Shown: in pieces, positions 1 to 22,017 of the stretch
Numbering within the stretch: position 1 is the stretch's first letter
How the letters are laid out: each line of letters starts with the position of its first letter
Source: a virus
Virus record (IMG/VR): IMGVR_UViG_3300046097_000085
Span: 1 to 30,822 of that record
Strand: one strand, 5' to 3'
Length of the DNA stretch: 30,822 nt
Position numbers and translations under genes: made by a program
The notes under the pieces: model-generated
What the model was told of the DNA's origin: nothing
Databases searched by the model: none
What the model saw: only the letters and a program-made list of their open reading frames with translations

Positions 1-9
1 TTTTTTTTT
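1..9 (+). terminator. T-run at window edge, probable tail of an upstream plus-strand terminator
   Basis: Nine T residues open the window directly beside the stop codon of the convergent minus-strand gene. Three or four other plus-strand terminators here (around 10706, 11658, 22001, 24856) end in TATG plus a T-run of this length, so this may be the same tail with its hairpin lying outside the window. This is inference only, since the stem is not visible. Confidence 0.3.
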
Positions 10-10
10 A

Positions 11-1753: not shown

Positions 1754-1768
1754 GGTTAATTACTTTCT

Positions 1769-4558
1769 TTAATTTGTGATGTTGATGAAACGGTTGATGT
1801 CTATTTGTGGTGCAAACGCATTGACTATTTCTTTAATGAATCTGAATTTACTCATATTCATACTTAATTCATAATTACAATAAGTAGGAAATAAATCAAT
1901 ATGTTGTGTAAATAATTTTAAGTCATTGTTCCATCTGTACACAGGATCAACAACATATAAATCATTGTATAAATTTACCAGTTGTGTTCTGTGATGATTA
2001 ACATCTAAACTGCTGCTGTAATCTGGTACAGCATAATTATCATATAAAACATCCAGGATAATAGCATTAAGGAACGCCGATACCAATACTGTTCTATTGA
2101 TAGATGTATCTGATCCAGTAGGATCTTGACTTACTTTAACGGCGTTAATTGCAGTAGCTGCAACAACTCTAAAATCAAGTTCTTTTTTTATTTGTTCACT
2201 TGTATTAAAATCACTGTGCGATTGATACATGTGTGCAACATCGTAGTAGTTATCTTCAATTAAATAAAAACTACTGTTAAAACTGTGTAGTGCTTGACTG
2301 GTTTGGTTTTCATTAGCCAGTTTATAAACACCTTGATCTATGTTAAATGTAGAGCCGTTGACCACCATAGAACAATTTCTATTTTTATAACTCTCATATT
2401 TGGAGTTATTAGAAATCATAGATTTATAGACAACACCAAACTCTAAGGCTTTATTTCTACCACCTTCAGCATTAGGGTGTCCAAAACAATATACACTGTA
2501 TTTAAATGTTTGATCTGTAGTGTTATTTAATAAAGCTACAGAGCTATGAATTATTATTTCTCCATTTTCTCTAGAAATAACGTAATCTATGTTTTCTATT
2601 AATCTTCTACCATTAACATATACATGAATATAGCCCCATAAAACGTCTTCATGTCTTCTAACGTAGTTATTAGGAACACTGACACTACCTACGCTTATAT
2701 GACCGTTTAAGACTTCTGGTGAGTATTTAATCACTACTCTTTTAGTTCTTTTCTTATAAGTACCAGAATTTAACAAATTAACAACCCCGTGAAAGCAATA
2801 ACCATCTTCACTAGAACGTATACAAGTATTTATTGTATTACTATTAGTTAACCATGTCAGCACATTACCATTGATAGTATAATGAGTACCTAACTCTGCT
2901 GGCCGGTAGTATTTTTCTAAAGTACCTTTATAGTAGAATTTATATTCTCTATATTTGTTAAGAGTTACAATAGAGCTGTTTCTATGTGAATCATAAATAC
3001 CTGTATCATTATTGAGTCTAGGATAGCTTACCAATTGCATACCAGGCAAGATATCTTGCATTGTCACATTTATTAATTCAGCTTGTTGCATACTAGGATA
3101 GTATTTAACGTATTGAGGCATTACGTTGAAATAGTTACTATCAAATACAACAGAACCATTAGAGCCAGCAGCTGTAGAAAATGGTCTTACTTTAGATTTT
3201 TTAAGATTACCTAAATCAGTAGCTAACCCATTGCTATCAAAGGTCTGTATTACAAAATCTTCACTAAAAATATCAGGTACTTTATAGCCATTGCTGACTG
3301 GTTGTAAACTATTACCATAGACATCAAAAAGACTATGGTAGCCTACAAGGTCTTTACTGATTATATCAGAATTACCATAATTGCTATTAAAAAACTGATT
3401 CAATACGCCAGTCTCTAAGTTATTACCTCTCCATTGAGCAATAGTAGACGGCGAACAAATTAACTGTGCTATAGATTTAGGGTCTAAGCCATTATTGCTA
3501 AAAGCAGTATAGTATAAATCGTTTAAACAAAGCGTAGTGCTAAATACTTTTTCATCACTATTGTCTTTTCTACAAATTGCAATGATACTACAATTGCTTA
3601 AGTTAAATAGTTCTCCATTTTTTTCAGAAACATCATTTAGATAATCAGAAGCTATAGAGAAAACATTATGTGTTAAATTCATAATGTTTTTCATAATGTT
3701 TGTATGTAAATAGATACCTACTTTTTCTACTTCATTATAAAGATAAAAAGAAGTATCATCTACCCAACAACGCTCTTGAGTATTTACTACTCCGTTGTTG
3801 TTTATCACAAAGACAAACTTATTACAATTGTGAGTTGTACTATGGTAATAAGGCATATCTGATATTTTAGATATTGACTTATAGTAAATACTCTCATCTT
3901 CATAAATCTCTAAGTGATCGCCTATTGCTGTTTTTGCAACATCGTGTCTATCAATTAGTTTACCACTTCTAAAACAAAGACATTTATCTAAATCTAATGT
4001 ATTTTGTATGTTAACAATATCGGCAGCATCTGCTAGTGTAGATACTTTCTTACCATAGAAATTTAAATTTCCAATATTACCATAGCCTGATCTATAGTAG
4101 ATGTTATCATACATTTTTAGATAAAGATCATCTACTACTGGATCTATTTTTATAGTAGTGAAATCTTCTACCAGTGCTAAATGCATAACACCATTATTGG
4201 ATACTCTATAATAAACCATGCTTATAGGTACACTAATTCCAGTATAAGTATAAATATCAAATAGTATATTAAAACTATTCCAATTATCCTTTAGGCTCAT
4301 CCATATGCCTAAATGTTTTTTTCTTTGATTATTGACTTCAATTGTGCTCCAACGATCAAAGTTTGTTGTAGGTAATAAATAATAATGAGTTACCTTACTA
4401 GCTATAGGAGCTTTGACTAGTTCACTGTTAAACATATAGTCACCAGTCACGCCGTTTTTAGGTGTTATTCTTTTTAATTTTACTATGAGTTGCTTATCTT
4501 GACCTTTATATGGCCAAAACGCTGCTCTTGCTATTTTAGTAGCTATCGATTGAACCAT
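1769..4558 (-). CDS. Large virion structural protein, probably tail or baseplate (929 aa)
   Basis: A 929-residue protein rich in Tyr, Asn, Ser and Ile without membrane segments. Around residues 650-690 it has a segment of the type 'VYVNGRRLIENIDYVI', a short beta-hairpin phrase (V-NG-RL-E-DY) recurrent in phage baseplate and fibre-associated proteins. The C-terminal 120 residues are more helical and charged. The gene is separated by one base from the upstream 327-residue gene and by 15 nt from the downstream 580-residue gene, so the three form one minus-strand operon divergent from the tail sheath gene. The exact part of the virion cannot be told from sequence. Confidence 0.6.
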   Translation of the reverse strand: MVQSIATKIARAAFWPYKGQDKQLIVKLKRITPKNGVTGDYMFNSELVKAPIASKVTHYYLLPTTNFDRWSTIEVNNQRKKHLGIWMSLKDNWNSFNILFDIYTYTGISVPISMVYYRVSNNGVMHLALVEDFTTIKIDPVVDDLYLKMYDNIYYRSGYGNIGNLNFYGKKVSTLADAADIVNIQNTLDLDKCLCFRSGKLIDRHDVAKTAIGDHLEIYEDESIYYKSISKISDMPYYHSTTHNCNKFVFVINNNGVVNTQERCWVDDTSFYLYNEVEKVGIYLHTNIMKNIMNLTHNVFSIASDYLNDVSEKNGELFNLSNCSIIAICRKDNSDEKVFSTTLCLNDLYYTAFSNNGLDPKSIAQLICSPSTIAQWRGNNLETGVLNQFFNSNYGNSDIISKDLVGYHSLFDVYGNSLQPVSNGYKVPDIFSEDFVIQTFDSNGLATDLGNLKKSKVRPFSTAAGSNGSVVFDSNYFNVMPQYVKYYPSMQQAELINVTMQDILPGMQLVSYPRLNNDTGIYDSHRNSSIVTLNKYREYKFYYKGTLEKYYRPAELGTHYTINGNVLTWLTNSNTINTCIRSSEDGYCFHGVVNLLNSGTYKKRTKRVVIKYSPEVLNGHISVGSVSVPNNYVRRHEDVLWGYIHVYVNGRRLIENIDYVISRENGEIIIHSSVALLNNTTDQTFKYSVYCFGHPNAEGGRNKALEFGVVYKSMISNNSKYESYKNRNCSMVVNGSTFNIDQGVYKLANENQTSQALHSFNSSFYLIEDNYYDVAHMYQSHSDFNTSEQIKKELDFRVVAATAINAVKVSQDPTGSDTSINRTVLVSAFLNAIILDVLYDNYAVPDYSSSLDVNHHRTQLVNLYNDLYVVDPVYRWNNDLKLFTQHIDLFPTYCNYELSMNMSKFRFIKEIVNAFAPQIDINRFINITN

Positions 4559-4559
4559 T

Positions 4560-5543
4560 TTAATTACCCTCGTTAGATAGAATTTTTCTCATGCCATAAG
4601 ACAATTGCTGCGCATCAAAATGCTTAGAGCTTATTTTTAAAACATCCGATAATTGATTTTTCTTATATATGACATGTTCCATTGCGCTATAACATAAAAA
4701 ACACCAAAGCAGTGGAATCTCATATGCAGCACAAATCATTTCTGCACCATTTTCACCTACCCAATATTGTTTTAACATTGTATACAAAACAATTGGTTTT
4801 AAATCTGACAATCTTTCAGATTTACAAGATTTACCAATCATAGTAGCTAAACTAGGAATATCAATCATAGATTCAAAATCATTTTCATTGATCATTTCTT
4901 TGATTTGATCAATACTTACTTTAGTAGATATGCTACTGAGTTCAGTAGCTTCTTCCATTGAACAACCAAGTCCAACTGCATAATAAAAATAAGCACATAC
5001 TACTTGTATATTTAATTGTACAGAATAGTCTAAAGAATAAGACCTTGCTAGAGCTTGTGACATACATACAGAAAAAGCATTAGCTGCTAGTGTACCTAAA
5101 GATATTACAGTCTGTTTGTTAATTTGACCACATGCAATTTTTCCTAGCAATACAGAATAACTGATCATAAAGTTAAATTGATGCATTGATGATTGTCTAA
5201 TTTTAACAATGCCGTCTACACCTAACTGGCCATATGCATTAGCATTAAAAATAACTGTAGTAGACATGTCTTTAGTATCGATGACTATTGGATGTTTAAA
5301 TCCATGCATGCCTAGGCGCTGATTCATATATGGTATAACACGAACAGACTTTCTAACGCCATCTTGTTCGTAGTTAAAATAGATAGACCCTTCTTCAAAT
5401 TGACCTTTCTTTAGATCAATATCGTTAATTACACTATTAGGAAACATACCCATTTCGTAATATTGTTCTAATTGTTTCTTTGCTGCTTCATATGCGCTGA
5501 CATATGGTTTTAGTACTGAGGTTTCATGTACTTGATATTTCAT
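4560..5543 (-). CDS. Conserved-type phage protein, first gene of the minus-strand virion operon (327 aa)
   Basis: A 327-residue mixed alpha/beta protein with no motif I recognise. The N-terminal 90 residues are charged and the rest is mostly helical with several Cys residues and a Met-rich segment near residues 110-140. It starts at an ATG preceded on the minus strand by a GGAGAA ribosome site. It lies head to head with the tail sheath gene across 187 bp, and that gap holds a perfect inverted repeat that may serve both genes. In phiKZ-like phages the genes just before the sheath encode virion proteins, so a structural or assembly role is plausible but unproven. Confidence 0.5.
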   Translation of the reverse strand: MKYQVHETSVLKPYVSAYEAAKKQLEQYYEMGMFPNSVINDIDLKKGQFEEGSIYFNYEQDGVRKSVRVIPYMNQRLGMHGFKHPIVIDTKDMSTTVIFNANAYGQLGVDGIVKIRQSSMHQFNFMISYSVLLGKIACGQINKQTVISLGTLAANAFSVCMSQALARSYSLDYSVQLNIQVVCAYFYYAVGLGCSMEEATELSSISTKVSIDQIKEMINENDFESMIDIPSLATMIGKSCKSERLSDLKPIVLYTMLKQYWVGENGAEMICAAYEIPLLWCFLCYSAMEHVIYKKNQLSDVLKISSKHFDAQQLSYGMRKILSNEGN

Positions 5544-5571
5544 TTCGTTTTTCTCCAGTTTAGAAAGTAAT

Positions 5572-5635
5572 GATTATATTAATATATGAACATTTGTGTT
5601 AAATAAACAATAAATACCCATATATTAATATAATC
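5572..5635. promoter_or_regulatory. Perfect 17-bp inverted repeat in the divergent virion-gene control region
   Basis: The 17-mer GATTATATTAATATATG at 5572-5588 on the plus strand recurs without mismatch on the minus strand at 5635-5619, separated by 30 bp. Each copy is AT-rich and ends in TATG pointing toward one of the two divergent genes. Late promoters of phiKZ are described as AT-rich with a TATG motif, so this is best read as two identical, face-to-face late promoters with overlapping initial transcripts. A dimeric repressor operator is the main alternative. Confidence 0.5.
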
Positions 5636-5669
5636 TAAAAAAGCATTTAAATAAATACTAGAATCATTT

Positions 5670-5714
5670 GGCTGCCGATCTAGACGGTAGTTATTTTTCG
5701 TTTCATGCATGAAA
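5670..5714 (+). promoter_or_regulatory. Structured leader of the tail sheath mRNA
   Basis: Two short hairpins lie between the inverted repeat and the sheath start. CTGCCG at 5672-5677 pairs with CGGTAG at 5685-5690 (one G-U) around a 7-nt loop. TTTCATGCATGAAA at 5701-5714 is a perfect 14-bp palindrome that stops just before the AAGGA ribosome site. They may protect the 5' end of a heavily translated message or tune ribosome access. Confidence 0.35.
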
Positions 5715-5730
5715 TTAAGGAAAACACATT

Positions 5731-7848
5731 ATGCTTCCACAAACCGCTGCTCCGCATGTGGTCTCGTTGGGCATTCAGGATAACTCGACTCGCGCTTTGC
5801 CAGTCGAGCCTATCGCTGGTGCTCCAGACCACACCCCTGTATTTTACCTTTTGACATCTAAAGGTCCTGAAGAAGCTCTAGTCGACGGTGGTCGACGTGC
5901 AGCACTATTTGGTTCTGAATCATTTGTTGAAGGCTCTAAGTACTTCACACACCAAACCTTTGGTTCTAACCTTGCTGCTGCAGGTGCTAACCTCCAAAAG
6001 ATTCGACGGGTCAAACCGGATAATGCTGGACCAAGGGCTAACGTTACTTTGTATTTGGATATTGTTGAAAAACAAGTCCAGTCATACGAACGCAATGCAG
6101 ATGGATCTATCAAACGTGATTCTATCACTGGCGCTGCTATCGCTAAAGCAGGCGGTGCTACTTATGATGGTTACCAAGTTGGTATTGTCGCACAAGTTGA
6201 CAGTTCTGCTACAGCAGACGATGATTTTGGTAAAGCATCTATCAAATCTGGCTCTACAGTAGTCGGTGGTGCAACCAGCCAACTTTACCCACTGATGAGC
6301 TTCCGTGCTTCTAGTTGGGGCGAAGTATTCCATCTGTCAGGTCTTCGTATTGCTACGGTCGATCCTATTGATACACGTGCTCGTCATACAAAAGCTGGTC
6401 AACAACTTTATCGTCTTTTGACAGTGCGTAAACCAGATGCTAAATCTTCTAGCACTGTAGTGAAAAGTATCTATGCAGCTACTGATGCATGGTTCTCTTT
6501 AGATGACAGCTACAAAGACCCAGATACTGCTTCTAGCATGTCTTTGGCTACAGCATTGTCCAATTGGGACAATACTACAAACCTAAGCTTGCCTTATACG
6601 GTTGGTGATATTTCTGAAGTGAAGACTTATAAAGCTTCTATTGAAGCTGCACTTCAAATGCTGTATACTGCTGAACAAATTGCAGTAGCTGCTGAATTCC
6701 CACTTGGTGTTGATGCTGCATTTACTGATGTCTCTACGACTGAAGATTTGCCATATTTGATTAACCCATTCACAGCACGTACTACTACCAATGTTCCTTA
6801 CTATGCTATCCAATTGGGTAACGGTATGGATGGTACTACCGCTGTTGCTAATGCTGTCACTATTGGTCAGTCTAGCGACATTATGCTTGGTGGTTCTAGC
6901 GATGGTACTATTACTTTAGAGCAATATGAAACTAAAGTAGTTGCTGACATTCAAAACTATTTGGATCAAAACAGCATCTATCAAAATCCTTTGCTCATGG
7001 AAGAGTCTGTCTTCTATGATACTGGTTTTAGCTTTAGCAACAAACTTAAATTAGCTGCCTTCATTGGTGCTCCACTGCGTAAAGATTTGGCAGTATATGT
7101 TTCCAATTATGTTTATGGTGAAGAAAAGCTAACTGAAGCTGAACGTATTGGTCGTACTACTTCTTTGGTAGGTGTAATTCGTGCTTTCTCCGAGAGCACT
7201 TACTACGGTACTCCTACTTGCCGTGGTTGGTTAGTGGATGGAGCAGGCCGTTCTAATAACTTTAATTACGCTGGTCGCCTACCATTGACTTTGGATTTGC
7301 TGATCAAAAACTGTAAAGTTTTCTCGGCTCAAAACCGTGTATGGAAACAAGCAGAAATTTATGATTCGTATCCTTCGAACAAGATTACTGCTTTCTACGA
7401 CTTGACTACTAGATTTGTACCACCGGCTACTCGCAATAAACTGTGGGACAATGGTGTTACTTATCCACAAGCATACAGCTCTACAGAAGACCACTTCCCA
7501 GCTGTGCGCAGTGTTTACTCTAATGATACGTCTATCCTGACTAACAGTTATGCTGTTTGGGCAGCTATCAGCTTAGAGCGTCTTGGCTTTAAAGCACATG
7601 CCACTTTCACTGGTAATGTTCGTTATACTAATCTGCAGTTCATTGAAGCTGTAACTAAGTTTTGCGAGCGTGATATCAATGGACGTTTTGCTGGTTTGGC
7701 TACTGTAGTGCCAAAATGTATCATCACTGAAGGCGATGCTACATTAGGTTATTCATGGCATTTAGAGCTGCACTACAGCGCTAACAACATGAAGACAGCT
7801 ATGGTATTGTCTAAGCATGCTTATCGCACTGGTGATATTCCTCAGTGA
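5731..7848 (+). CDS. Contractile tail sheath protein
   Basis: The 705-residue product fits the tail sheath of phiKZ-like phages (phiKZ gp29 is about 700 residues). The N-terminal part has the typical sheath opening in which a Pro-rich stretch leads into a strand, then 'VFYLLTSKGPEEAL' and a Gly/Phe/Phe region near residues 50-80 for docking on the tube. The middle is Thr/Ser-rich and variable, and the C-terminal 150 residues hold the helical and strand elements that link sheath subunits. Start is ATG with AAGGA nine bases upstream; stop is TGA followed at once by TAA. Codons are visibly more GC-rich than in most neighbours, as expected for an abundant protein. The tube gene follows after a hairpin. 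Confidence 0.75.
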   Translation: MLPQTAAPHVVSLGIQDNSTRALPVEPIAGAPDHTPVFYLLTSKGPEEALVDGGRRAALFGSESFVEGSKYFTHQTFGSNLAAAGANLQKIRRVKPDNAGPRANVTLYLDIVEKQVQSYERNADGSIKRDSITGAAIAKAGGATYDGYQVGIVAQVDSSATADDDFGKASIKSGSTVVGGATSQLYPLMSFRASSWGEVFHLSGLRIATVDPIDTRARHTKAGQQLYRLLTVRKPDAKSSSTVVKSIYAATDAWFSLDDSYKDPDTASSMSLATALSNWDNTTNLSLPYTVGDISEVKTYKASIEAALQMLYTAEQIAVAAEFPLGVDAAFTDVSTTEDLPYLINPFTARTTTNVPYYAIQLGNGMDGTTAVANAVTIGQSSDIMLGGSSDGTITLEQYETKVVADIQNYLDQNSIYQNPLLMEESVFYDTGFSFSNKLKLAAFIGAPLRKDLAVYVSNYVYGEEKLTEAERIGRTTSLVGVIRAFSESTYYGTPTCRGWLVDGAGRSNNFNYAGRLPLTLDLLIKNCKVFSAQNRVWKQAEIYDSYPSNKITAFYDLTTRFVPPATRNKLWDNGVTYPQAYSSTEDHFPAVRSVYSNDTSILTNSYAVWAAISLERLGFKAHATFTGNVRYTNLQFIEAVTKFCERDINGRFAGLATVVPKCIITEGDATLGYSWHLELHYSANNMKTAMVLSKHAYRTGDIPQ

Positions 7849-7857
7849 TAAGCCAAG

Positions 7858-7893
7858 AATGAATGAGAAGAAATAAAAAACTTCTCATTCATT
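7858..7893 (+). terminator. 13-bp hairpin between sheath and tube genes
   Basis: AATGAATGAGAAG at 7858-7870 pairs perfectly with CTTCTCATTCATT at 7881-7893 around a 10-nt A-rich loop. No long T-run follows, so it may be a partial terminator or an mRNA 3'-end stabiliser that lets some transcription continue into the tube gene. Confidence 0.5.
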
Positions 7894-7938
7894 TAAACTC
7901 ATCACAAAAACAAACATTTTTTCAAAAAGGAAATCATC

Positions 7939-8871
7939 ATGGCTTTACCTGATACTGGCATCAGCAACGTTGCTGGCGCAGATCGCCCACAAGAATCGTT
8001 GGTCTCTCACACAGACTCAATTGTATCTTACGGCAAAACACATCAACAAGTTAACTTAGCAAAGTTTGGCCAATTTGGCTGGGCTACTGCTCCAGAAAAC
8101 TGGGCAGTTAATACCCATGACGTATCGCGTCAAATGGAAGTACAAGTGCTTCAAACTCCAGGTGCTTTTAAAGCTGTTCCTGGTGGTGAGAAGCTAATTG
8201 CTTCTTGGGTAGCTTTGTTTGAAACTCATTGCAAGACCATCGAAGGTTTTGAGCTGGGTTATGACTATGAATACGAAGAGACTGCCTTTGGCGGCACTGG
8301 TCAAATGTACCATGACCTTACAAACATCAAACGTAAACAAGTCAATCCTAAGACCACTTACGTAGATTACTACGGTCGTCCTATTTTCCATTTCTTGAAT
8401 ACTTATATGCAGTTGGTAGGCATGAATGCTGAAACTAAGTATCCAGATTTGGTAACCTTGCTCGATGAAGCAAGTCGTCCTACTGATTATTTAAATGATC
8501 AACGAGCAGGCATTGTTTTATTCTGGGAACCTACTCCAGATCACCGCCGTGTAGAGAACGCAGTATTGGTTGTCAACATGATGCCTAAGACTACTGGCTC
8601 AATCAACATGCGTCGTGATATGACAGCTAATGGTGAGTTAACCAATATCGATGTCGATTGGACTGGCACTGCTATCTTTGGAAGTGGCATTCAGTCTCTG
8701 GCACAAACCATCATGACGAGCAGGTCAATGTTGAACTCAAGTCCTTCATTACGGCCTGCGCACTTACGCGGGATAGGCAGTGACATTATGGCGAACAGTT
8801 CAGGCAGCAATTCGGACTTGCTTAAAAAGATGTCTCAAGACGGCACTGCTGTTCTTGCTGGCAAGCTTTAA
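7939..8871 (+). CDS. Tail tube protein
   Basis: A 310-residue protein directly after the sheath gene, in the size range of phiKZ-like tail tube proteins (phiKZ gp30 follows sheath gp29). It is soluble and mixed alpha/beta, with a Gln-rich N-terminus, several Trp residues near residues 45-55 and a Ser/Asn-rich C-terminal tail. Start is ATG with AAAGGAAA upstream at optimal spacing. Codon choice is GC-richer than surrounding small genes, again suggesting high expression. No promoter of the six-copy early class precedes it, so it is probably transcribed with the sheath. The identity rests on order and size rather than a diagnostic motif. Confidence 0.65.
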   Translation: MALPDTGISNVAGADRPQESLVSHTDSIVSYGKTHQQVNLAKFGQFGWATAPENWAVNTHDVSRQMEVQVLQTPGAFKAVPGGEKLIASWVALFETHCKTIEGFELGYDYEYEETAFGGTGQMYHDLTNIKRKQVNPKTTYVDYYGRPIFHFLNTYMQLVGMNAETKYPDLVTLLDEASRPTDYLNDQRAGIVLFWEPTPDHRRVENAVLVVNMMPKTTGSINMRRDMTANGELTNIDVDWTGTAIFGSGIQSLAQTIMTSRSMLNSSPSLRPAHLRGIGSDIMANSSGSNSDLLKKMSQDGTAVLAGKL

Positions 8872-8884
8872 TTAATATAAATAC

Positions 8885-8918
8885 CTCTACACAGCCTATA
8901 GGCTGTGTAGAGTGTATG
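8885..8918 (+). terminator. Terminator-type hairpin followed by TATG, after the tail tube gene
   Basis: CTCTACACAGCC at 8885-8896 pairs perfectly with GGCTGTGTAGAG at 8901-8912 around TATA, and TATG follows at 8915-8918. It belongs to the same family as the hairpins near 10677, 11629, 21973 and 24827, sharing the CTCTAC/GTAGAG base and the TATG, but lacks their T-run. Confidence 0.65.
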
Positions 8919-8935
8919 ATTAAAATATTCACCAA

Positions 8936-8977
8936 AGGTGAGAATGCAGAAAAATATAAACATATATTACTATATTG
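8936..8977 (+). promoter_or_regulatory. Early promoter element, copy 1 (class A)
   Basis: GGTGAGAATGCAGA at 8937-8950 is followed by the core TATATTAC at 8963-8970 and TG at 8976-8977. Spacing is identical in all six copies. The core matches the TATATTAC early promoter of phiKZ-like phages. It precedes the 544-residue HNH gene and sits 24 bp after the tube-gene hairpin. GGTGA here also pairs with an upstream TCACC, a feature not shared by other copies. Confidence 0.75.
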
Positions 8978-9030
8978 AAAGAGTTAGTCATCTTATGATT
9001 TTTGAATATTTTAAATTGGAGTAAACAAAA

Positions 9031-10665
9031 ATGAATAGTCAAAGATATTCAGTATCTAGAAAAAAGCCTTTGGGTCTAGAGGGTAAAATATTTTCTAAAT
9101 TACTTTTACTAGAAGAAGTAGACAAAGGTAATAAAAATTCTAGAAGATTTTATAAAGCAAAATGTGATTGTGGTAATATTGATGAATATGATGCTAGAGA
9201 TATAACTAATGGAACTAGAAGAGAATGTAGAAAGTGTTCTTTAGAGTCCAATAAAAAACATAAACACTCTGATTATATTGGTAAGAAATTTGGTAAATGG
9301 ACAGTAGACGACCACCCAGAAATTCCATATGGTAATCGTTGGAAGTGGAAAGTAACTTGTGATTGTGGTAGTAAAAATGATGTTTCATCACATTCTTTAA
9401 TACATAAAGCTTCTCAATCTTGTCACAAATGTACTACACTTGGTTCTAGAAAATTTATACATTCAGATTGTATTGGTAAGAAATATAATCATTTAACAGT
9501 CTTAAATGAACCTGAACTAAGTGAACCTACTAAAAGTGGTGGTCCAAGAAGACTGTGGAAAGTACAATGTGATTGTTATAATAAAACTATATTAAATATT
9601 AGACCAGATGTATTACTATCAGGTGAAACTAAAAGTTGTAACAAATGCTCAGCTATTCAACGTGAAGAAAAAGAAACTGAAAATCTTAAAAAAGATTTAA
9701 TCGGTATGAAATTTAATATGCTAAAAGTGTTAGATTATGAAAAATCTGACTTAAAGCACCCAGGCTCAAAAGAGACTTCTAGATATTGGAAGGTTCAGTG
9801 CGACTGTGGTAATTTAATAAGTTTAAAGACCGACGAAATATTAGGAACAAAAGGCAGGATACTCCAAAATGGCGATAGACCTTTAAGATATTCTTGTGGT
9901 TGTGTGCCGCATCCTAATCTGCCACATGGTAAGGTAGGAGAGCTCAATTGTAATTACACAGGCTATAAGGAAGTAACTGGTACTTACGTGAAACAAATGG
10001 AAAAAAGTGCAAGATACAGATCTAAAAATGGCCGTTATATAGAATTTAATATAACAGCTAAAGACGTATGGGATCAGTTTGAAAAACAAGATTTCAAATG
10101 TTACTATAGTGGTGTACCTATTTCTTTTGAATATAATACAGCGTCAGTAGACAGAGTAAACAGTGACAAAGGCTATACAGTAGATAATATTGTACTGTGT
10201 CATAAACATGTTAACTTAATGAAACAAACAACCTCTATCGATGGTTTTAAAATATGGGCTAATAGAATAGCTAACAACAATTATAGAAGTAAAACTGGTG
10301 TGTTTATCTATATTACTGAAGGTGTTAAAACACAAGGTATTATAGAAGCTATAGAGAAAATTTTAAAATTAGATAGTTATATCTACATCACATTTGTAAA
10401 TAATAATTTAGAAAAAGTGTTTGAACACTTAGATAAAATAAATGTAGAGCATGAATTAGCAACATTGTCTATAGGTGAGTTTGATGCTAAAGTTAATAGA
10501 CAATTCAAATCGATACTAGATAAAGCTATATCATCTAGTAGAAAAGCTTATCTTTTATACAATGATAAATTTTTAGATAATAGATTAAGTTCCGTAGAAC
10601 AAATATTAAATAATTATCAATTAGATTGGTCTATGAAATTTCGTATAAAAGATGAAATAAAATAA
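9031..10665 (+). CDS. HNH homing endonuclease with four CxCG zinc modules
   Basis: The 544-residue product has four tandem N-terminal modules of about 65 residues, each with a 'GKKFGKWTV'-like strand, then a C-x-C(-G) pair and a C-x-x-C or C-G-C pair, which look like small zinc-binding DNA-recognition units. Residues about 350-400 form the nuclease: C-x-x-S-G, an 'ASVDRVNSDKGYTVDN' block and a closing N-x-x-K, matching phage HNH endonucleases. The last 110 residues are an extra mixed alpha/beta domain I do not recognise. It has its own early promoter and terminator and interrupts the spacing between tail and small early genes, so it reads as a free-standing selfish element. AT-rich codons differ from the flanking tube gene. 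Confidence 0.8.
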   Translation: MNSQRYSVSRKKPLGLEGKIFSKLLLLEEVDKGNKNSRRFYKAKCDCGNIDEYDARDITNGTRRECRKCSLESNKKHKHSDYIGKKFGKWTVDDHPEIPYGNRWKWKVTCDCGSKNDVSSHSLIHKASQSCHKCTTLGSRKFIHSDCIGKKYNHLTVLNEPELSEPTKSGGPRRLWKVQCDCYNKTILNIRPDVLLSGETKSCNKCSAIQREEKETENLKKDLIGMKFNMLKVLDYEKSDLKHPGSKETSRYWKVQCDCGNLISLKTDEILGTKGRILQNGDRPLRYSCGCVPHPNLPHGKVGELNCNYTGYKEVTGTYVKQMEKSARYRSKNGRYIEFNITAKDVWDQFEKQDFKCYYSGVPISFEYNTASVDRVNSDKGYTVDNIVLCHKHVNLMKQTTSIDGFKIWANRIANNNYRSKTGVFIYITEGVKTQGIIEAIEKILKLDSYIYITFVNNNLEKVFEHLDKINVEHELATLSIGEFDAKVNRQFKSILDKAISSSRKAYLLYNDKFLDNRLSSVEQILNNYQLDWSMKFRIKDEIK

Positions 10666-10676
10666 TGTTAATCAAA

Positions 10677-10718
10677 CACTCTACTGGTATAAGACCAGTA
10701 GAGTGTATGTTTTTTTTT
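10677..10718 (+). terminator. Terminator of the HNH cassette (TATG plus T-run family)
   Basis: CACTCTACTGGT at 10677-10688 pairs perfectly with ACCAGTAGAGTG at 10694-10705 around a 5-nt loop, followed by TATG at 10706-10709 and nine T. The upstream TTAATCAAAC flank is shared with the other family members. Confidence 0.85.
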
Positions 10719-10722
10719 CACA

Positions 10723-10764
10723 GGGTGAGAGTCCAGAAATTTATATTCACATATTACTATCATG
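10723..10764 (+). promoter_or_regulatory. Early promoter element, copy 2 (class B)
   Basis: GGGTGAGAGTCCAGA at 10723-10737, core CATATTAC at 10750-10757 and TG at 10763-10764, with the common spacing. It starts only five bases after the T-run of the preceding terminator and drives the small genes at 10819 and 11106. Confidence 0.75.
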
Positions 10765-10818
10765 AAAGCAATAAACGGTTTATTGCTTATAACTCCTTTA
10801 ATCTACAAGGAAAAAAAA

Positions 10819-11094
10819 ATGTCTTCAACTGAATCTACTATTGAAAATGTCTCAATCAAATCAAAAGACTATGGGCATGAGGCTACTACTGTAGTCAATG
10901 GTACTACTGTAATCATGAAATTTGATCATCTTTACAAGCCACTGTCCATTCATATCAATGGTTCTGCTTCTGAAGTACTACATGAAAGTACGGTTGGTTG
11001 TGCATGCGAGCGTTTTTCAGAAGTGTTAGAGGCAGCTGATGCTTACACAACTGAAAACATTGTCATTCTTCAAAATCTGTGCAACTGTCAATAA
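10819..11094 (+). CDS. Small early protein of unknown function (91 aa)
   Basis: I place the start at ATG 10819 rather than the in-frame ATG at 10762, because AAGG followed by eight A lies just upstream and because 10762 falls inside the promoter's predicted transcription start region. The 91-residue product is soluble with a beta-rich middle and four Cys, including C-A-C near residue 60-63 and C-N-C at the C-terminus, which could bind metal. The next gene begins 11 bases after its stop. An early promoter upstream suggests a role soon after infection. No homologue is recognised. Confidence 0.65.
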   Translation: MSSTESTIENVSIKSKDYGHEATTVVNGTTVIMKFDHLYKPLSIHINGSASEVLHESTVGCACERFSEVLEAADAYTTENIVILQNLCNCQ

Positions 11095-11105
11095 GGAAAA
11101 TATAA

Positions 11106-11621
11106 GTGTCTAAATTGCAAAACTTTGATGTCAAAGCACTTTCTATTTTCCAACCACAGAGTGCAGAAAAAGTCAATGGCATTTTGTACATGACCAGCTA
11201 CTTCGGTAAAGGTTGTAAAATCCAATATGCCATTGGTAAACACAATAAACGACAAAAGCGCCCATTGGTTTATGGAATTACTTTGTCAAAATTTGACATT
11301 GTAACAAATAAAACATACAAATTTCACTGTGGTTTAATCTGCAATGATGAAAGGTTTGATGAATATGAAATAGATCTTGGAATCGATAACATTCATGAAT
11401 GTGAATTTCCTTTCCAAGTCGAATTCATTACACACATTAGACTGTCAATGATTTTGTTTAAATTATTTTACCAACAAATGTCTGGAGCAATTCAGATTGA
11501 TTTTGACGATGTATTTGAAGGTATCTTAACAGACAACGACTGGACTGAAACACTTAAAGAAGTGTTACATATATTCGATAGTGTTTGGACAGAAACTGAC
11601 AACAAGCTGAGGTCGATTTAA
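11106..11621 (+). CDS. Early protein of unknown function (171 aa)
   Basis: A 171-residue product with a GTG start at 11106, preceded by AAGGAAAA at the stop of the upstream gene. It has a basic N-terminal third (residues 20-60, Lys/Arg-rich) and an acidic C-terminal third (residues 130-165, Asp/Glu-rich), without membrane segments. It shares the class B early promoter with the 91-residue gene and is closed by a strong terminator, so the two form a compact early operon. Function is unknown. Confidence 0.65.
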   Translation: MSKLQNFDVKALSIFQPQSAEKVNGILYMTSYFGKGCKIQYAIGKHNKRQKRPLVYGITLSKFDIVTNKTYKFHCGLICNDERFDEYEIDLGIDNIHECEFPFQVEFITHIRLSMILFKLFYQQMSGAIQIDFDDVFEGILTDNDWTETLKEVLHIFDSVWTETDNKLRSI

Positions 11622-11628
11622 TCAAACT

Positions 11629-11670
11629 CTACACACTGGCTAATAGCCAGTGTGTAGTATGTTTTTTTTT
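11629..11670 (+). terminator. Terminator of the 10819-11621 operon
   Basis: CTACACACTGGCT at 11629-11641 pairs perfectly with AGCCAGTGTGTAG at 11645-11657 around a 3-nt loop, followed by TATG and a T-run from 11662. The left flank TTAATCAAACT overlaps the stop codon of the operon. It faces the convergent minus-strand gene that ends at 11670. Confidence 0.85.
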
Positions 11671-12839
11671 TATCTTTGTAGGATTTTATTAACTATTAAA
11701 TTATTGCGCATAGACAATGAACCACTTAAAGCTGTTAAATTAATTAATCGATTAGAAACTATATAATTATAAGTAGCTAATGGATTTTTATATGCCATTT
11801 TAATAGACATGCCAATAGCATTGTTTCTAATAAGTTCTCTTGACATTTGATACAAATGACCTTTTGATCTTTTAGTCAAACTCTCGTTTTTACTGATTTT
11901 ATTTAAAATATCAAAATATTTCAAAAACACAAGTGCATATATCCAATCGATCTGTACTGATCTGTGAACAGTTTTATAACTAAACAATTCAAACAAATCT
12001 TTTTTATTATATACAGAAACATTAGATAATGCTTGTTGAGCATTTGTTACTTTTTCAGCAATGTTATTTAACTGATATTTTAAACTATTGTCTATTTGTT
12101 TCGTATTTGTAAATATATAGAAAGGTTGTTTTAAACTTTTTCTATTGATATCTAAAACAGATTGAATGTGTATTCCATTTGCTAAGTCACTAGATCTATT
12201 AGCTATAACTAAATCAATATGTCTTTCAATCATGTTTGGAAAAACAAATCTAGTAATAAAATCTTTAGGGGTAACAGAGTAAGATAGTTTATTTTTAGAT
12301 ATGGAGTCTTCACAAAAAGCTTTATACATGCAAGCTAACATGACTGGATTAATTTCAACTACACTATAACCGGCTGAATCACAAAAACATAAAGGTCCAG
12401 GTTGTATAAAATTTAATTTCTTGACTTCATGACATATAACTTTTACTGGCTCTAAATCTTTCCAATCTCTATCTATATAAGCTACTGGAAAATATCTATC
12501 AATAGCTACTATATACTCCTGGGTGTTTTGATAAAACTCCCCATCGTGCATTTTTCCTACAGTAGCATAGGTAGTTATACCTAATGTAGAACAAGAGTTT
12601 CTATAGGTCTTAGAGACCCTTGAATAGCACTCATTAAATGTCTCATCAACTCCTTTGTCTAATAGACTAATAAGTTTAATAAGAATATGTGAATTATTTA
12701 AAAATTGAGGTCTTTTAATGTAATATTTTTTTACATTTTCAATATCTTTTTTTACCATCATTTTTAATTGACGGTGTTTAGGATCTAAAGATACAGGTAC
12801 TCTTAATTTTTCTATTGGATTAAATAACGTATAATTCAT
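11670..12839 (-). CDS. Unknown protein linked to the DNA polymerase gene (389 aa)
   Basis: A 389-residue soluble protein, basic overall, with a helical C-terminal third rich in Asn, Leu and Ser and no motif I recognise. A Cys cluster near residues 145-155 and a repeated 'YIVAID' / 'VAYIDRD' strand pair near residue 115 are visible but not diagnostic. It follows the DNA polymerase gene by 14 bases on the same strand, so a role in replication, or a detached part of the polymerase, is worth testing. I looked for exonuclease DxE and polymerase motif A and did not find convincing matches. Confidence 0.55.
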   Translation of the reverse strand: MNYTLFNPIEKLRVPVSLDPKHRQLKMMVKKDIENVKKYYIKRPQFLNNSHILIKLISLLDKGVDETFNECYSRVSKTYRNSCSTLGITTYATVGKMHDGEFYQNTQEYIVAIDRYFPVAYIDRDWKDLEPVKVICHEVKKLNFIQPGPLCFCDSAGYSVVEINPVMLACMYKAFCEDSISKNKLSYSVTPKDFITRFVFPNMIERHIDLVIANRSSDLANGIHIQSVLDINRKSLKQPFYIFTNTKQIDNSLKYQLNNIAEKVTNAQQALSNVSVYNKKDLFELFSYKTVHRSVQIDWIYALVFLKYFDILNKISKNESLTKRSKGHLYQMSRELIRNNAIGMSIKMAYKNPLATYNYIVSNRLINLTALSGSLSMRNNLIVNKILQR

Positions 12840-12853
12840 AAAACCCTTATTGT

Positions 12854-15001
12854 TTAAATATGGTCTTCAATCTGACCACCTAACCATTCGATTACTGTAC
12901 GATTTTCATTATCAGGATAAACACCCAGAGCTTGAGCTAAAAGATAATGATTGGTACAAGCTTTTCTGACCACTTTTCTATAATCAATAACACTACGCAG
13001 CTCTTTAGGAATTCCAGTATGATTTAACAATGCTTGAGGCATCATGTAACTACTAAGGTATTCTCTTTTATGTTTTTGCATCCAAGTAACCATACGCATA
13101 GCCAACTCTTTATCTTCCATAGAGTTGATGAAATCGTTCATCTTGGTTTTTGTATTGGTATTTGTATTAACAGAAAGTGTGGCATAAGGTAAATCTGGCG
13201 GTCTGCCGTATTTAGGAGCAAATACTTCTGTCCACAAAAGATGTTGTTGGTAACTAGGAGTAGACTCAGCATTTTTATAAGCTTGAGGCGATTTAATTTT
13301 GCTTTTTCTAAGTATGGTACTACTTGCATCATTGACAGAGTTTATAACCATAGCTTCAGCATTAGCTATTTTTGTAATAATTTCTTTTAAATTAACTTTA
13401 CCAGTAGTTTGTAGGGATTCAATAATGTCTTTTTTCAAAATACTATCACAAGAATCTAAGCTAACTTTAGGTATGGCTGATGATATAAAGTTAGCTCCTT
13501 TGACTTCGTATTTTTTCTTAGAAGTCATATTACCTTCTTTAGCACCAATAATCGATGCGTAGTGTTTAGTCATTAAGGTCATTAACATGACATCAAATCT
13601 AAATTCATTTTTCATCTCTACAGTAAACAAATTTTCTTTATCTACTCCCATTTGAGAAGAAAAATATGCTAAGTAATGAACAAGTGTAATTGATACTAAC
13701 ATGTTCATAACAGATACTACTTTAACATATTCTTTATCATAAATAATAGAATCGTTTTTCCAAATACACCAGTCTTGTACAGTAAAAAATGTGCTATCAG
13801 TATCACCACCTAAAACCACTCTTCTGACTGAATTAGGAAAAGATCCTACTCTTGGTGGTAAATGGTTATTTGTAAATATACATCTAATAAATGACTCATA
13901 TTTTTCTAATGCCTTACACAATGCTTTTGTAGTATGATACAAAGCTAACATGTTTTCTTTAGGCCATTTTCCAATATCTGGATCTTGATCTACAGCATAC
14001 TCAGTTACTAATTGTTTTGTGTGAATCAATATCTTTTCATGAACTGAATATAACCATTTGACTGGATTTTCATCTTCAACTTCTCCAGTAATGTTAATAA
14101 CACTTAAATCATCTATCATTTTTTTCATGAAAGAATCGTTACATAATCTTATATGATAAAGATCACCAGTGTATACAATGACTGCTCTTTGTGTATCGTT
14201 TAATTTAGATATAAAAGATTTCAATATATTTTCATCTTTCATACGTACTGTATATAAACTAAGTGATCTCATTATACAATCGTATACTTGTTCTTGTGTT
14301 GGATATACTAAATTATATTTTTTCAAAATACTATCAAAATGGTTTATGTCTGTTCCAGATATAAGACTAACCATATTAGCCAATGCTGTATCACAATCAA
14401 AATAAAGTCGAGTACCTGATAAACATCTCTCAGTATGTCCATTACCAATAGCTGTAGTAATCCTACAAATACTGGTAAGTGTTTGATGACCACTAGCATT
14501 CTTAAGACCAGTACTAGCTACAGTCAATGCACCTGATACAGAGTTATTAGAAGTCTTTTTAGCTTTTTGAAGTGTGCCGTAAAAAATAGAATTTGAAACA
14601 TCTTTTTTAGCTTCAGCTACTGCTTCTAATTTTTTAAATGCTTTTCTTTTTGCAATGTTTTTTACCATAAACGATGCAATAGGAGACTTCATTACTTTTG
14701 ATGGTAAGTACTGTGTTAAGCAAGGAACTAATATATTTTCAGTTTGTATAGCCTGATTGATATGTCCTAAGTAGGTTGTTTTATTTAAAAACCTATCGCC
14801 AAATTCATTCTTTTTTAGTACTGTCATTTCAGGATCTTTGATCTTAGGAATAACATGTTCTCTTAAAAAAGCATCTGCTTGTTCTTTTGTAATACCTTTT
14901 TCTATTTGAAGAAAATGGCTGTATTGAGACAAAGCGGTTTTAGCTACATCAAGTTCTCTTTTATAGAAACTATAATCTGTGAAATCGAAATTATTACTCA
15001 T
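12854..15001 (-). CDS. Family-B DNA polymerase, palm and thumb part (715 aa)
   Basis: The 715-residue product carries the polymerase core of family B. Motif B is the K-rich helix ending in N152-N153-S154-V155-S156-G157 and continues through 'ITTAIGNGH' near residues 181-189. Motif C is G399-D400-T401-D402-S403 with the catalytic aspartates. The thumb-entry motif KKKYEVKG spans residues 495-502. About 240 residues separate motifs B and C, longer than usual. Neither a 3'-5' exonuclease domain nor a clear motif A (DxxSLYP) precedes motif B, so the enzyme is either extremely divergent or split, with the missing part encoded elsewhere. It would synthesise phage DNA, inside the nucleus if this phage makes one. 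Start ATG 15001 has AGAAGTG upstream. Confidence 0.8.
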   Translation of the reverse strand: MSNNFDFTDYSFYKRELDVAKTALSQYSHFLQIEKGITKEQADAFLREHVIPKIKDPEMTVLKKNEFGDRFLNKTTYLGHINQAIQTENILVPCLTQYLPSKVMKSPIASFMVKNIAKRKAFKKLEAVAEAKKDVSNSIFYGTLQKAKKTSNNSVSGALTVASTGLKNASGHQTLTSICRITTAIGNGHTERCLSGTRLYFDCDTALANMVSLISGTDINHFDSILKKYNLVYPTQEQVYDCIMRSLSLYTVRMKDENILKSFISKLNDTQRAVIVYTGDLYHIRLCNDSFMKKMIDDLSVINITGEVEDENPVKWLYSVHEKILIHTKQLVTEYAVDQDPDIGKWPKENMLALYHTTKALCKALEKYESFIRCIFTNNHLPPRVGSFPNSVRRVVLGGDTDSTFFTVQDWCIWKNDSIIYDKEYVKVVSVMNMLVSITLVHYLAYFSSQMGVDKENLFTVEMKNEFRFDVMLMTLMTKHYASIIGAKEGNMTSKKKYEVKGANFISSAIPKVSLDSCDSILKKDIIESLQTTGKVNLKEIITKIANAEAMVINSVNDASSTILRKSKIKSPQAYKNAESTPSYQQHLLWTEVFAPKYGRPPDLPYATLSVNTNTNTKTKMNDFINSMEDKELAMRMVTWMQKHKREYLSSYMMPQALLNHTGIPKELRSVIDYRKVVRKACTNHYLLAQALGVYPDNENRTVIEWLGGQIEDHI

Positions 15002-15204
15002 GTTTTTATCACTTCTTCTGTATAATCATAGGAGTTGTTATAGTAGTTCTTTATAGATTAATGCAAAAAAATACAATGAATTACGTATATAATGGAGAAC
15101 TACTCCCGCATTGTCTTTAGTGACAATGTAGTAGTTAAGTATGATTTTGAATAAATGTATTTAAACCCTTTAATGGTAAGTACACATTAGTACTCGCACT
15201 TCAG
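15002..15204. promoter_or_regulatory. Control region between the DNA polymerase and chimallin-candidate genes
   Basis: No supported gene lies in this stretch. A 20-codon frame starting ATG 15092 has no ribosome site. Three mutually complementary short segments are present: AGTAGTTC at 15042-15049, GAACTACT at 15097-15104 and AGTAGT at 15130-15135, with CATTGTC/GACAATG (15109-15115/15122-15128) forming a hairpin between the last two. TATG follows at 15140, as it does after the terminator-family hairpins. On the minus strand a CTATGATTATAC segment near 15030 could be the polymerase promoter. Confidence 0.4.
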
Positions 15205-15246
15205 GGGTGAGAATGCAGAAAATTTCATACTTATATTACTAGTATG
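15205..15246 (+). promoter_or_regulatory. Early promoter element, copy 3 (class A), upstream of the chimallin candidate
   Basis: GGGTGAGAATGCAGA at 15205-15219, core TATATTAC at 15232-15239, then TG at 15245-15246, with the shared fixed spacing. It is about 105 bp upstream of the start codon, leaving room for a structured leader. Confidence 0.8.
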
Positions 15247-15254
15247 GAGTAATG

Positions 15255-15323
15255 CGAAGATCCACTTCGGCTTCACCTAAACGCATCCCACTTATGTGTT
15301 TAGGTAAACATTGATAACAATGT
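15255..15323 (+). promoter_or_regulatory. Three-hairpin 5' leader of the chimallin candidate mRNA
   Basis: Hairpin 1: CGAAG 15255-15259 with CTTCG 15265-15269. Hairpin 2: ACCTAAACGCAT 15275-15286 with ATGTGTTTAGGT 15294-15305, a 12-bp stem with one G-U and a 7-nt loop. Hairpin 3: ACATTG 15308-15313 with CAATGT 15318-15323. All lie between the early promoter and the GAAGGA ribosome site. Message stabilisation or translational control is likely. Confidence 0.5.
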
Positions 15324-15351
15324 GTGAATATTCCCATGAAGGAAATTTAAA

Positions 15352-17304
15352 ATGTCTCTCAACGTCGATACCCAAGAAACCGCGACAACTCAAGCAACTG
15401 CACCTGCAGCTCCTGGTTTTGGTTCTTTGAGCTCAGCAGCCCCTACCAATGATTCTGGAGACGATGGCTTTGACAACGTTAGCCTTGGTGCAATTACCAA
15501 GAAAACTGGTGGTGTTGGTTTCCAAGAACTGTACCGAAAAGCTCAAGACGCTTTGAAAACAAAGATCTCTCCTAACACTTTGGAGAAAATTCCTGTTGAC
15601 CTGATTCCTCTTGATACTGCTTTGCCGCAATTCTCTCAGCTGCATGCACCTGGTATCATTGCTGTAGCACCTGGAAAAGACGATGGTAACTTGTACTACA
15701 CCGTACTGGTATTCCAAGATCCTAGCCGTGATCCAGGCACTCGTGAAGTCCCAACTAACAGCAATGGCAACATTAAAACTGTTTGGCACCTGACTGACAT
15801 GGATTGCTATGACAACGTGTATGAAAACACTGTCAAAGCAGCTGTACAAGATTGGGCACGTACCAAAGGGTTTGAGCGTCTGGTGCCTACTAACGTTATG
15901 GGTTGTTTGGTTTCTTCCAACTACAAAACCCAAGACGACAACGCCATGGCTCAGTTGATCAATACCTATGCAATCATCCCACTGTGGACTGCTAAGGTAG
16001 ACGTACAACAAGCCAATGGTAAGCCTATGGATTTGACCCGTATGTCGCAAGGCAAACGTCTAGAATCTGTTGTAGCTTACGCTGGTGTTCCTCATCAAGA
16101 ACATACTACTGGCACTGTACACAATGCTCGTTTTATGTTGGCTGTGAACAAAGTCACTGATGCTAAGAACAGCGGCAATGGCATGTACTCCATGAACGAT
16201 GGTACTCAACGTGACCCACAGACGCTGTCTGGTGGTTACTTGGATGTCATTCCTGCAGATGAGTTTGTTGGCACGCCACAAGCTTCTAATTTGCAAGTTG
16301 TTCCTGGTTATGGCGTTCCTGCACGTAAACCTCAGCTCAACGCTCGTGTAGTGATGACTATTTTGGATTCTCCTAACTTGAATACACTGCAAATGCAGTT
16401 GCTCAGCTTGGGCTCTACCATCCTTCACTTCCGTCGTCGTGAAAACCTGATTGATGGCTTCTTGGCTACTAGCTCCTCACAAGAGCAAGCATCCATGTGG
16501 TCTATCGCTGGTTTGAACGTGTTGGCCAACATTGACAAAAAGACTACTGGTCAAAGCGAGCCTATCGCTGACATCAATAGCGCTGATATCAACCAAAAAG
16601 TAGAATTGTTCAACCAGATGGTTGCTGACCAAACTGCTTATACGTTGCGTATTTCTCGTCTTGGTCAAGACAGTTATCACAACAGCATCTTCTTGCAAGC
16701 AGCTAACCCTGCCAATCGTGACCATGCACAACGTATTGTTGAAGCAGCTAACGCATTGACTGGTGGTCGCCTGGCAGCTATTCTTGCTGGACAGTCTATC
16801 ACTCCTGTGATGCCTGGTGTGACTTTGGTCCCACTGGGTTACTACACTGATAGTGAAGGCACTAAGCGCGATCTGTCAGATGTGAACGCTGTGACTATCA
16901 TGAACCGTGTTGGTCGTGGTGGTAATGCTTCTATGCTTGAAGCTCTCAAAGCTTACTACATGGCATTTGATGGTCAACAAGACGATGCTATTACACGTCT
17001 TGAGACTCTTCGCAAGCTGTACAAAGAACTGCTTGGTTCTTCTGTTGTGTTTACTGGTACTGGCTATATCGTTAATATCGATGGCCGTTTTGCTACAGCT
17101 TTGGCTGAAGCAATCTTTGCCACTGGTAAAGCGCCTGTGCTCACAAATGGCTCCAACATTGGTTTGGGCTCGACACGCTTTGCTCCAGTATGGAGTCAAA
17201 ATGCGTTTAGTCAATCCAGCATTGGTGCTTACAACCCAAGCATCAATTCTGGTGCTTCTGTAGGCATGCCTAACTTTGTGATGCCTGGTCAACGTTCTTT
17301 CTAA
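15352..17304 (+). CDS. chmA: Candidate phage-nucleus shell protein, chimallin (650 aa)
   Basis: A 650-residue soluble protein with a low-complexity Ala/Thr/Pro/Gly N-terminal arm (residues 1-45), a long folded middle and a flexible Asn/Ser/Gly-rich C-terminal arm (about residues 600-650). Chimallin proteins are about 630 residues and assemble a lattice through flexible N- and C-terminal segments, so size and architecture fit. The gene immediately precedes an RNA polymerase beta-prime N-terminal gene, as phiKZ gp54 (chimallin) precedes gp55. It has an early promoter and markedly GC-richer, uniform codon use, as expected for a very abundant early protein. A capsid or other abundant structural protein is the main alternative. 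I could not align it to a reference. Confidence 0.72.
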   Translation: MSLNVDTQETATTQATAPAAPGFGSLSSAAPTNDSGDDGFDNVSLGAITKKTGGVGFQELYRKAQDALKTKISPNTLEKIPVDLIPLDTALPQFSQLHAPGIIAVAPGKDDGNLYYTVLVFQDPSRDPGTREVPTNSNGNIKTVWHLTDMDCYDNVYENTVKAAVQDWARTKGFERLVPTNVMGCLVSSNYKTQDDNAMAQLINTYAIIPLWTAKVDVQQANGKPMDLTRMSQGKRLESVVAYAGVPHQEHTTGTVHNARFMLAVNKVTDAKNSGNGMYSMNDGTQRDPQTLSGGYLDVIPADEFVGTPQASNLQVVPGYGVPARKPQLNARVVMTILDSPNLNTLQMQLLSLGSTILHFRRRENLIDGFLATSSSQEQASMWSIAGLNVLANIDKKTTGQSEPIADINSADINQKVELFNQMVADQTAYTLRISRLGQDSYHNSIFLQAANPANRDHAQRIVEAANALTGGRLAAILAGQSITPVMPGVTLVPLGYYTDSEGTKRDLSDVNAVTIMNRVGRGGNASMLEALKAYYMAFDGQQDDAITRLETLRKLYKELLGSSVVFTGTGYIVNIDGRFATALAEAIFATGKAPVLTNGSNIGLGSTRFAPVWSQNAFSQSSIGAYNPSINSGASVGMPNFVMPGQRSF

Positions 17305-18906: not shown

Positions 18907-18912
18907 AAGTTA

Positions 18913-18955
18913 AATGAAGAGTATGTATCAACTAAAAAAAAACATACTCTTCATT
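18913..18955. terminator. 14-bp hairpin after the RNA polymerase gene
   Basis: AATGAAGAGTATGT at 18913-18926 pairs perfectly with ACATACTCTTCATT at 18942-18955 around a 15-nt A-rich loop. On the minus strand the sequence reads GAGTATG plus nine T, the same tail as the terminator family, but as part of stem and loop. A TATATTAC core starts three bases after it at 18958, without the upstream GGTGAGA block. Confidence 0.55.
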
Positions 18956-19071
18956 AGTATATTACATAAAAATACTATGAATATTTATTTTTTGATTAAA
19001 ATGTTTGTTTAGATATATACAAACATATTTATCTATTAACTTAAGTTTAACGTTCAAAATGAAAGGTATTT

Positions 19072-20175: not shown

Positions 20176-20193
20176 TAAAGTGTATACCCATGT

Positions 20194-20235
20194 GGGTGAG
20201 AGTCCAGATTTTTTTATATATACATTACTATTGTG
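20194..20235 (+). promoter_or_regulatory. Early promoter element, copy 4 (class B)
   Basis: GGGTGAGAGTCCAGA at 20194-20208, core TACATTAC at 20221-20228 and TG at 20234-20235, with the shared spacing. It separates the two paralogous HNH genes. The upstream ACCCA forms a small inverted repeat with TGGGT of the element. Confidence 0.75.
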
Positions 20236-20281
20236 AAAACTCTAATAGTATTAACCCAAACCAAACATGTAAGGAGTAAAC

Positions 20282-20311
20282 ATGAAAGTGAAAAATAATG
20301 ATTGGTTTTAG
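20282..20311 (+). CDS. Nine-codon leader frame overlapping the start of HNH endonuclease 2
   Basis: The best-placed ribosome site here, AAGGAG at 20271-20276, sits five bases before ATG 20282, which opens a frame of nine codons ending TAG at 20309-20311. The HNH frame starts at ATG 20298 inside it, in another register. It could couple translation by termination and restart, or mark a frameshifted old start. Confidence 0.3.
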   Translation: MKVKNNDWF

Positions 20312-21299: not shown

Positions 21300-21309
21300 A
21301 GGAATATAA

Positions 21310-21972: not shown

Positions 21973-22013
21973 CTCTACACTGCCCTAGGGCAGTGTAGAG
22001 TATGTTTTTTTTT
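21973..22013 (+). terminator. Terminator after the 217-residue gene
   Basis: CTCTACACTGCC pairs with GGCAGTGTAGAG around CTAG (21973-22000), followed by TATG at 22001-22004 and nine T. The left flank TTAATCAAAC overlaps the stop codon, as in the other family members. Confidence 0.88.
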
Positions 22014-22017
22014 ATAA

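Follow-up and report, generated by a model that had tools for sequence, protein, structure and literature searches.

A predicted HNH endonuclease gene in a putative early transcription unit of its own in a phiKZ-type jumbo phage

In phiKZ-like phages, early transcription starts six bases downstream of AT-rich promoter elements (PMC5312081, PMC7598289). In AR9 the promoter is AAATATATATTAT-6N-G, and a start 6 nt past the element is also seen in phiKZ and phiR1-37 (PMC5312081). Among phage endonuclease genes, those of T4 have specific promoters that are middle or late, none of them early (PMC2988022). The HNH enzyme gp210 of phage phiPA3 can block a co-infecting phage (PMC11620839). Gene shuffling between T4-like phages has been linked to PeSLs (promoter early – stem-loop cassettes); PMC4503421 cites Arbiol 2010 and Comeau 2014 on this point.

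We analyzed a fragment of 30,822 bp (IMG/VR virus record IMGVR_UViG_3300046097_000085), called the window below. Genes for tail sheath, tail tube, DNA polymerase, chimallin, the non-virion RNA polymerase (nvRNAP) beta subunit, PhuZ tubulin and thymidylate kinase were identified in it; judged by its sequence, the source virus is a nucleus-forming, phiKZ-type jumbo phage. Since the tube protein and the DNA polymerase have a best identity of only ∼35% to any match in the phage and IMG/VR collections, the phage appears to represent a deep lineage. Single queries of IMG/VR with tube, HNH1 and DNA polymerase found no close relatives, and none were found among GTDB contigs.

The − strand encodes both the DNA polymerase and a gp52-like protein (11670–15001), in genes that adjoin the tube region; relatives carry the polymerase on the + strand next to a − strand gene, with PhuZ upstream of the polymerase. 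Given these differences in polymerase strand and PhuZ placement, the genome in the window is likely to be rearranged. The GC content is 43–46% in the sheath, tube, chimallin and PhuZ genes (5731–8871, 15352–17304 and 29000–29983) and far lower in most other genes, with all three HNH genes at 26–30%; the window mean is 33.7%. The features considered here are as follows.

7939–8871, + strand: tail tube gene (phrog_3185; Pfam PF23806 Phage_TTP_14)
8885–8912, + strand: left hairpin, 12-bp stem, then TGTATG, with no U-run
8937–8977, + strand: predicted early promoter of HNH1, sub-class A; box GGTGAGAATGCAGA, core TATATTAC at 8963, predicted +1 G at 8977
9031–10665, + strand: HNH1, predicted free-standing HNH endonuclease of 544 aa with N-terminal CxC/CxxC repeats (phrog_374, 3322 and 1035; SD GGAG)
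10676–10706, + strand: right hairpin, 13-bp stem, then ATG-T9
10724–10764, + strand: predicted early promoter, sub-class B, GGTGAGAGTCCAGA, predicted +1 G at 10764
10819–11094, + strand: 91-aa ORF 3′ of the right module; no relatives found
11106–11621, + strand: 171-aa ORF, one unit with the 91-aa ORF; no relatives found
11629–11657, + strand: putative terminator ending the unit of the 91-aa and 171-aa ORFs, facing convergent genes
15206–15246, + strand: predicted promoter (A) before the chimallin gene, in a divergent region
15352–17304, + strand: chimallin (nuclear shell) gene (phrog_4795; PF25677)
19072–20175, + strand: HNH2, predicted HNH_3-type endonuclease (phrog_59; PF13392)
20195–20235, + strand: predicted promoter (B) before HNH3, no hairpin directly upstream
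20298–21299, + strand: HNH3, tandem paralog of HNH2 (44% identity)
21973–22000, + strand: hairpin of the third module, 12-bp stem, then TATG-T9
22019–22059, + strand: predicted promoter (B) of the third module, predicted +1 G at 22059, before a small ORF at 22111
24827–24855, + strand: another putative terminator of like design, without promoter
28865–28905, + strand: predicted promoter (A) before the PhuZ gene (ATG at 29000; phrog_4733)

Three modules (8885–8977, 10676–10764 and 21973–22059), each with a strong hairpin followed ∼45 bp on by a common promoter, were found where the original prediction had placed them, and the module ends given there are also the places of the predicted start G (8977, 10764 and 22059). 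It was also correct that HNH1 has a promoter of its own and hairpins on both sides. The hairpins had been described as terminators; the right (10676) and third (21973) ones carry T9 and fit this description, but the left one has TGTATGATTAAAA after the stem. With no U-run it may not terminate, and it would be the weakest terminator candidate of the three. A gap of ∼20 bases had been placed between hairpin and promoter; the gap exists, but its bases extend into part of the conserved box of the promoter. The distance from hairpin to promoter is 43–50 nt in the window versus 27–44 nt in phiKZ. Promoters at 15206 (chimallin), 20195 (HNH3) and 28865 (PhuZ) have no module-type hairpin just upstream.

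A scan of the window for the promoter motif, GGTGAGARTSCAGA-N15-ATTAC-N6-G, gave six exact copies, all on the + strand and with invariant spacing. For its extended form, GGTGAGARTSCAGA-N15-ATTACTA, the next best site in the window had six mismatches. The 14-nt box with up to three mismatches had seven sites versus a mean of 1.06 in shuffled sequence, and the promoter motif did not appear in 300 simulated windows. The copies sit roughly 50–110 bases 5′ of a gene; the genes behind them are HNH1, chimallin, HNH3, PhuZ and two small ORFs. Two variable positions define sub-class A (AATGC; HNH1, chimallin and PhuZ) and sub-class B (AGTCC; the 91-aa ORF, HNH3 and the ORF at 22111), though with six copies the linkage of these positions could be due to chance. 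Promoter parts group by sub-class and not by their place around HNH1: identity is 85% for HNH1–PhuZ, 83% for HNH1–chimallin and 78% for HNH1–right. Sigma-70 promoters were considered as well and rejected, as the promoter scan gave fewer sites than shuffled sequence in 1–16000 and chance level in the rest.

The 3′ half of the motif matches the early promoter of the phiKZ-family virion RNA polymerase (TATATTAC-6N-G) and can be identified with it. The AT-rich core A[TC]ATTAC was present in all six copies, as was the G right after N6. In position the promoters also resemble those of phiKZ and AR9, where an AT-rich core with a G start 6 nt on stands before early genes such as chimallin: the copy at 15206 precedes the chimallin gene in the window, TATATTAC at 45568 precedes gp54 in phiKZ, and TATATTAC-N6-G is present upstream of the phiKZ chimallin gene. 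In 250 kb of phiKZ we counted 29 TATATTAC sites on the + strand, 23 of them with G at the start place, and 8 on the − strand, one with G. As chimallin and PhuZ genes are among the six sites, the promoter is likely to serve genome-wide rather than as an accessory of HNH genes.

Conservation upstream of the core was not restricted to AT-rich sequence. The GGTGAGARTSCAGA box, located at −40 to −27 and 15 nt before the core, is conserved, and for this reason we consider the promoter a variant of, rather than a plain, phiKZ-family virion RNA polymerase early promoter. While early promoters of phiKZ and AR9 are AT-rich only, those of the window add a GC-containing 14-nt element in six copies; in phiKZ there is only AT-rich sequence at the box position. 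The box was found in none of 80 IMG/VR DNA-polymerase loci, and two collection scans including IMG/VR (2.9 million viral contigs) returned nothing but chance in-gene matches to the promoter pattern. A two-part early promoter thus appears to be new, the early promoters of known phiKZ relatives being AT-only.

Similar punctuation was observed in relatives. Early promoters of the phiKZ family often lie 27–50 nt behind a hairpin, as in the window; of the 29 + strand TATATTAC sites counted in 250 kb of phiKZ, 13 have a hairpin no more than 110 bp upstream, versus 4% of random positions. Eleven HNH-less records (phiKZ, the near-identical L170, D6 and the IMG/VR loci L151, L152, L156, L157, L164, L169, L182 and L191) have at the tube junction a hairpin, TTTATG or TATG, ∼30–45 bases, an early promoter and a gene, in this order. 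The module is not universal after the tube gene, since at 51 of 79 distinct junctions sampled the tube gene is followed by a convergent gene, with only a terminator between them. A hairpin followed by an early promoter would then be a normal, family-wide unit boundary in the phiKZ family.

TATG is the late promoter consensus of phiKZ. Strong hairpins of phiKZ (L021 and L031–L034) have TATG within 9 nt in 23 of 52 cases (+ strand reading) versus a background of 3.6%, and most + strand hairpins of the window are likewise followed by TATG. The phiKZ region upstream of gp119 contains the known late promoter P119L; by inspection this region has no GC-rich hairpin at TATG, which leaves any link between the terminator TATG and late promoters tentative.

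The HNH core of HNH1 occupies approximately residues 318–416 of 544, with matches to phrog_3322 (3e-21), phrog_1035 (2e-18) and phrog_374. The motif S-x-DR[VI]-x3-KGY-x2-DN-x8-N-x-MK is common to HNH1 and annotated phage HNH proteins; there was no Pfam match above cut-off and no solved structure by sequence. The gene is an intergenic ORF with its own Shine-Dalgarno sequence (GGAG) and a 54-nt leader, outside any intron or intein (no Rfam intron). It resembles the seg and mob genes of T4 as an endonuclease gene placed between conserved genes and oriented as its neighbors; unlike the free-standing endonucleases of T4, with their middle or late promoters, it has a predicted promoter of early type. 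It shares with phiPA3 gp210, a model for interference with a co-infecting phage (PMC11620839), the HNH domain and a nucleus-forming jumbo phage as its carrier; gp210 is intron-encoded inside a virion RNA polymerase subunit gene, whereas HNH1 is free-standing with no intron detected. A relationship of HNH1 to phiKZ gp31 was rejected, as no similarity was found. By motif search, an HNH gene follows the tube gene in the window only (1 of 79 junctions) and is absent in 78 of 78 other junctions, all from distant relatives; given this uniqueness, the gene was likely to have been gained at the tube junction in the lineage of the window.

HNH2 and HNH3 are flanked by the nvRNAP beta gene on one side and a phrog_3254 gene on the other (18906–21310). 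The corresponding place is empty in PCH45 and pPa_SNUABM_DT01 and holds an HNH gene in phiKZ (gp56) and SNUABM_54. HNH2/HNH3-like matches were observed in 7 of 48 IMG/VR loci, all directly 3′ of RNAP beta; the site appears to be a recurrent slot for HNH insertion. The gap between RNAP beta and HNH2 (18916–18965) has a hairpin (GAAGAGTATGT...ACATACTCTTC) and then TATATTAC, with neither the GGTGAGA box nor a G at the start position. Upstream of HNH3 (20270–20320) there is a good SD, AAGGAG, with an ATG at 20282 that opens a 9-codon ORF only (MKVKNNDWF). The HNH3 frame begins at 20298 in a different frame, a situation compatible with a leader peptide, a start-site frameshift or a sequence error.

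What role the GGTGAGARTSCAGA box has, and how HNH1 came to stand between two modules, could each be explained in more than one way. We take the box for a part of the promoter because it keeps a constant spacing and because one copy is located between divergent genes; we would give even odds to the proposal that a bipartite early promoter with a −35-like 14-nt box is recognized in this lineage by the virion RNA polymerase or by a co-injected factor. The box is situated 5′ of an AT-rich core which alone equals the known consensus in phiKZ and AR9, and it might instead belong to upstream transcripts, as an RNA element or a protein-binding one, and have been carried along without being part of the promoter. 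This is unlikely: the spacing between box and core is exactly 15 nt in 6 of 6 copies, the copy at 15206, between the DNA polymerase and chimallin genes, has no + strand gene upstream, and the box matches no Rfam family.

As to the modules, the original prediction was that HNH1 and one module had been inserted by homologous recombination between modules. There are three module copies in 31 kb, HNH-less relatives have a single module at the tube junction, and PeSLs, composite promoter-terminator motifs, are reported to mediate gene shuffling between T4-like phages (PMC4503421). PeSLs are a composite of early promoter and stem-loop repeated between genes, and a composite in three copies is what we see in the window; their promoter, though, is of host type, while that of the window modules is a predicted virion RNA polymerase promoter found also at core genes. 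The modules around HNH1, which had been presented as imperfect direct repeats, are both present but only 68% identical, just as other pairs are (left–third 68%, right–third 71.6%); the longest exact match between them is 12 bp (11–16 bp across module pairs), their promoters differ in sub-class (AATGC versus AGTCC) and there is no homology beyond the modules. In contrast to PeSLs, copies so diverged would not act as recombination sites now, and no relatives with shuffled genes were seen. An empty site with tube gene, one module and the 91-residue gene had been anticipated in relatives. The outline, tube–(small ORF)–one module–next gene, was indeed observed in phiKZ, D6 and nine more HNH-less records, but the 91-residue gene was in none of the relatives, the nearest of which are ∼35% identical in tube and DNA polymerase; this ORF had no match in the phage collection and the 171-aa ORF no relatives, and the gene adjacent to the module in relatives (gp31 in the phiKZ clade) is not homologous to ORFs of the window. 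Insertion by recombination between modules is, in our estimate, improbable; an event of old date may have occurred, but the sequence gives no sign that the modules were recombination sites. Nor are the modules likely to be an expression cassette for selfish genes, as had also been proposed, because the core genes chimallin and PhuZ use the identical promoter type. Somewhat better, if still tentative, is the idea that HNH1 replaced or preceded an older accessory gene in the slot of phiKZ gp31, the left module being inherited and the right one having arrived together with the small-ORF unit or been copied to serve it. The phiKZ-clade order (tube, small ORF, module, gene of ∼390–400 aa, gene of ∼115 aa, convergent gene) may be set beside that of the window (tube, module, 544-aa HNH1, module, 91-aa ORF, 171-aa ORF, convergent gene), but gp31 and gp31.1 have no sequence similarity to the window ORFs, and the convergent neighbors differ, gp52-like in the window and gp32 in phiKZ.

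The reading that we regard as highly probable is that the modules are transcription-unit boundaries and that HNH1 is a free-standing gene in its own early unit of a phiKZ-type jumbo phage. It is built on the observed hairpins, the promoter in six copies of fixed spacing, the match of its core and +1 to known early promoters, and the like punctuation in HNH-less relatives. The bracketing of HNH1 would most likely be mostly ordinary, reflecting punctuation used across the family and not scars of insertion. Transcription timing, termination, nuclease activity, and homing or interference we infer. The hairpin would end or dampen the upstream unit and the virion RNA polymerase early promoter would start the next one, with HNH1 in an early unit that follows the tail tube gene and precedes the small-ORF unit. 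The injected virion polymerase could then make the HNH1 transcript as soon as infection starts, separately from the tail genes.

The observations bear on the question of how virion polymerases of jumbo phages choose promoters without recognized sigma factors; a long, strictly spaced two-part early promoter would offer a strong test sequence that is easy to mutate. From the arrangement one would also expect production of an HNH endonuclease immediately after infection, which may be relevant to models of interference between co-infecting phages.
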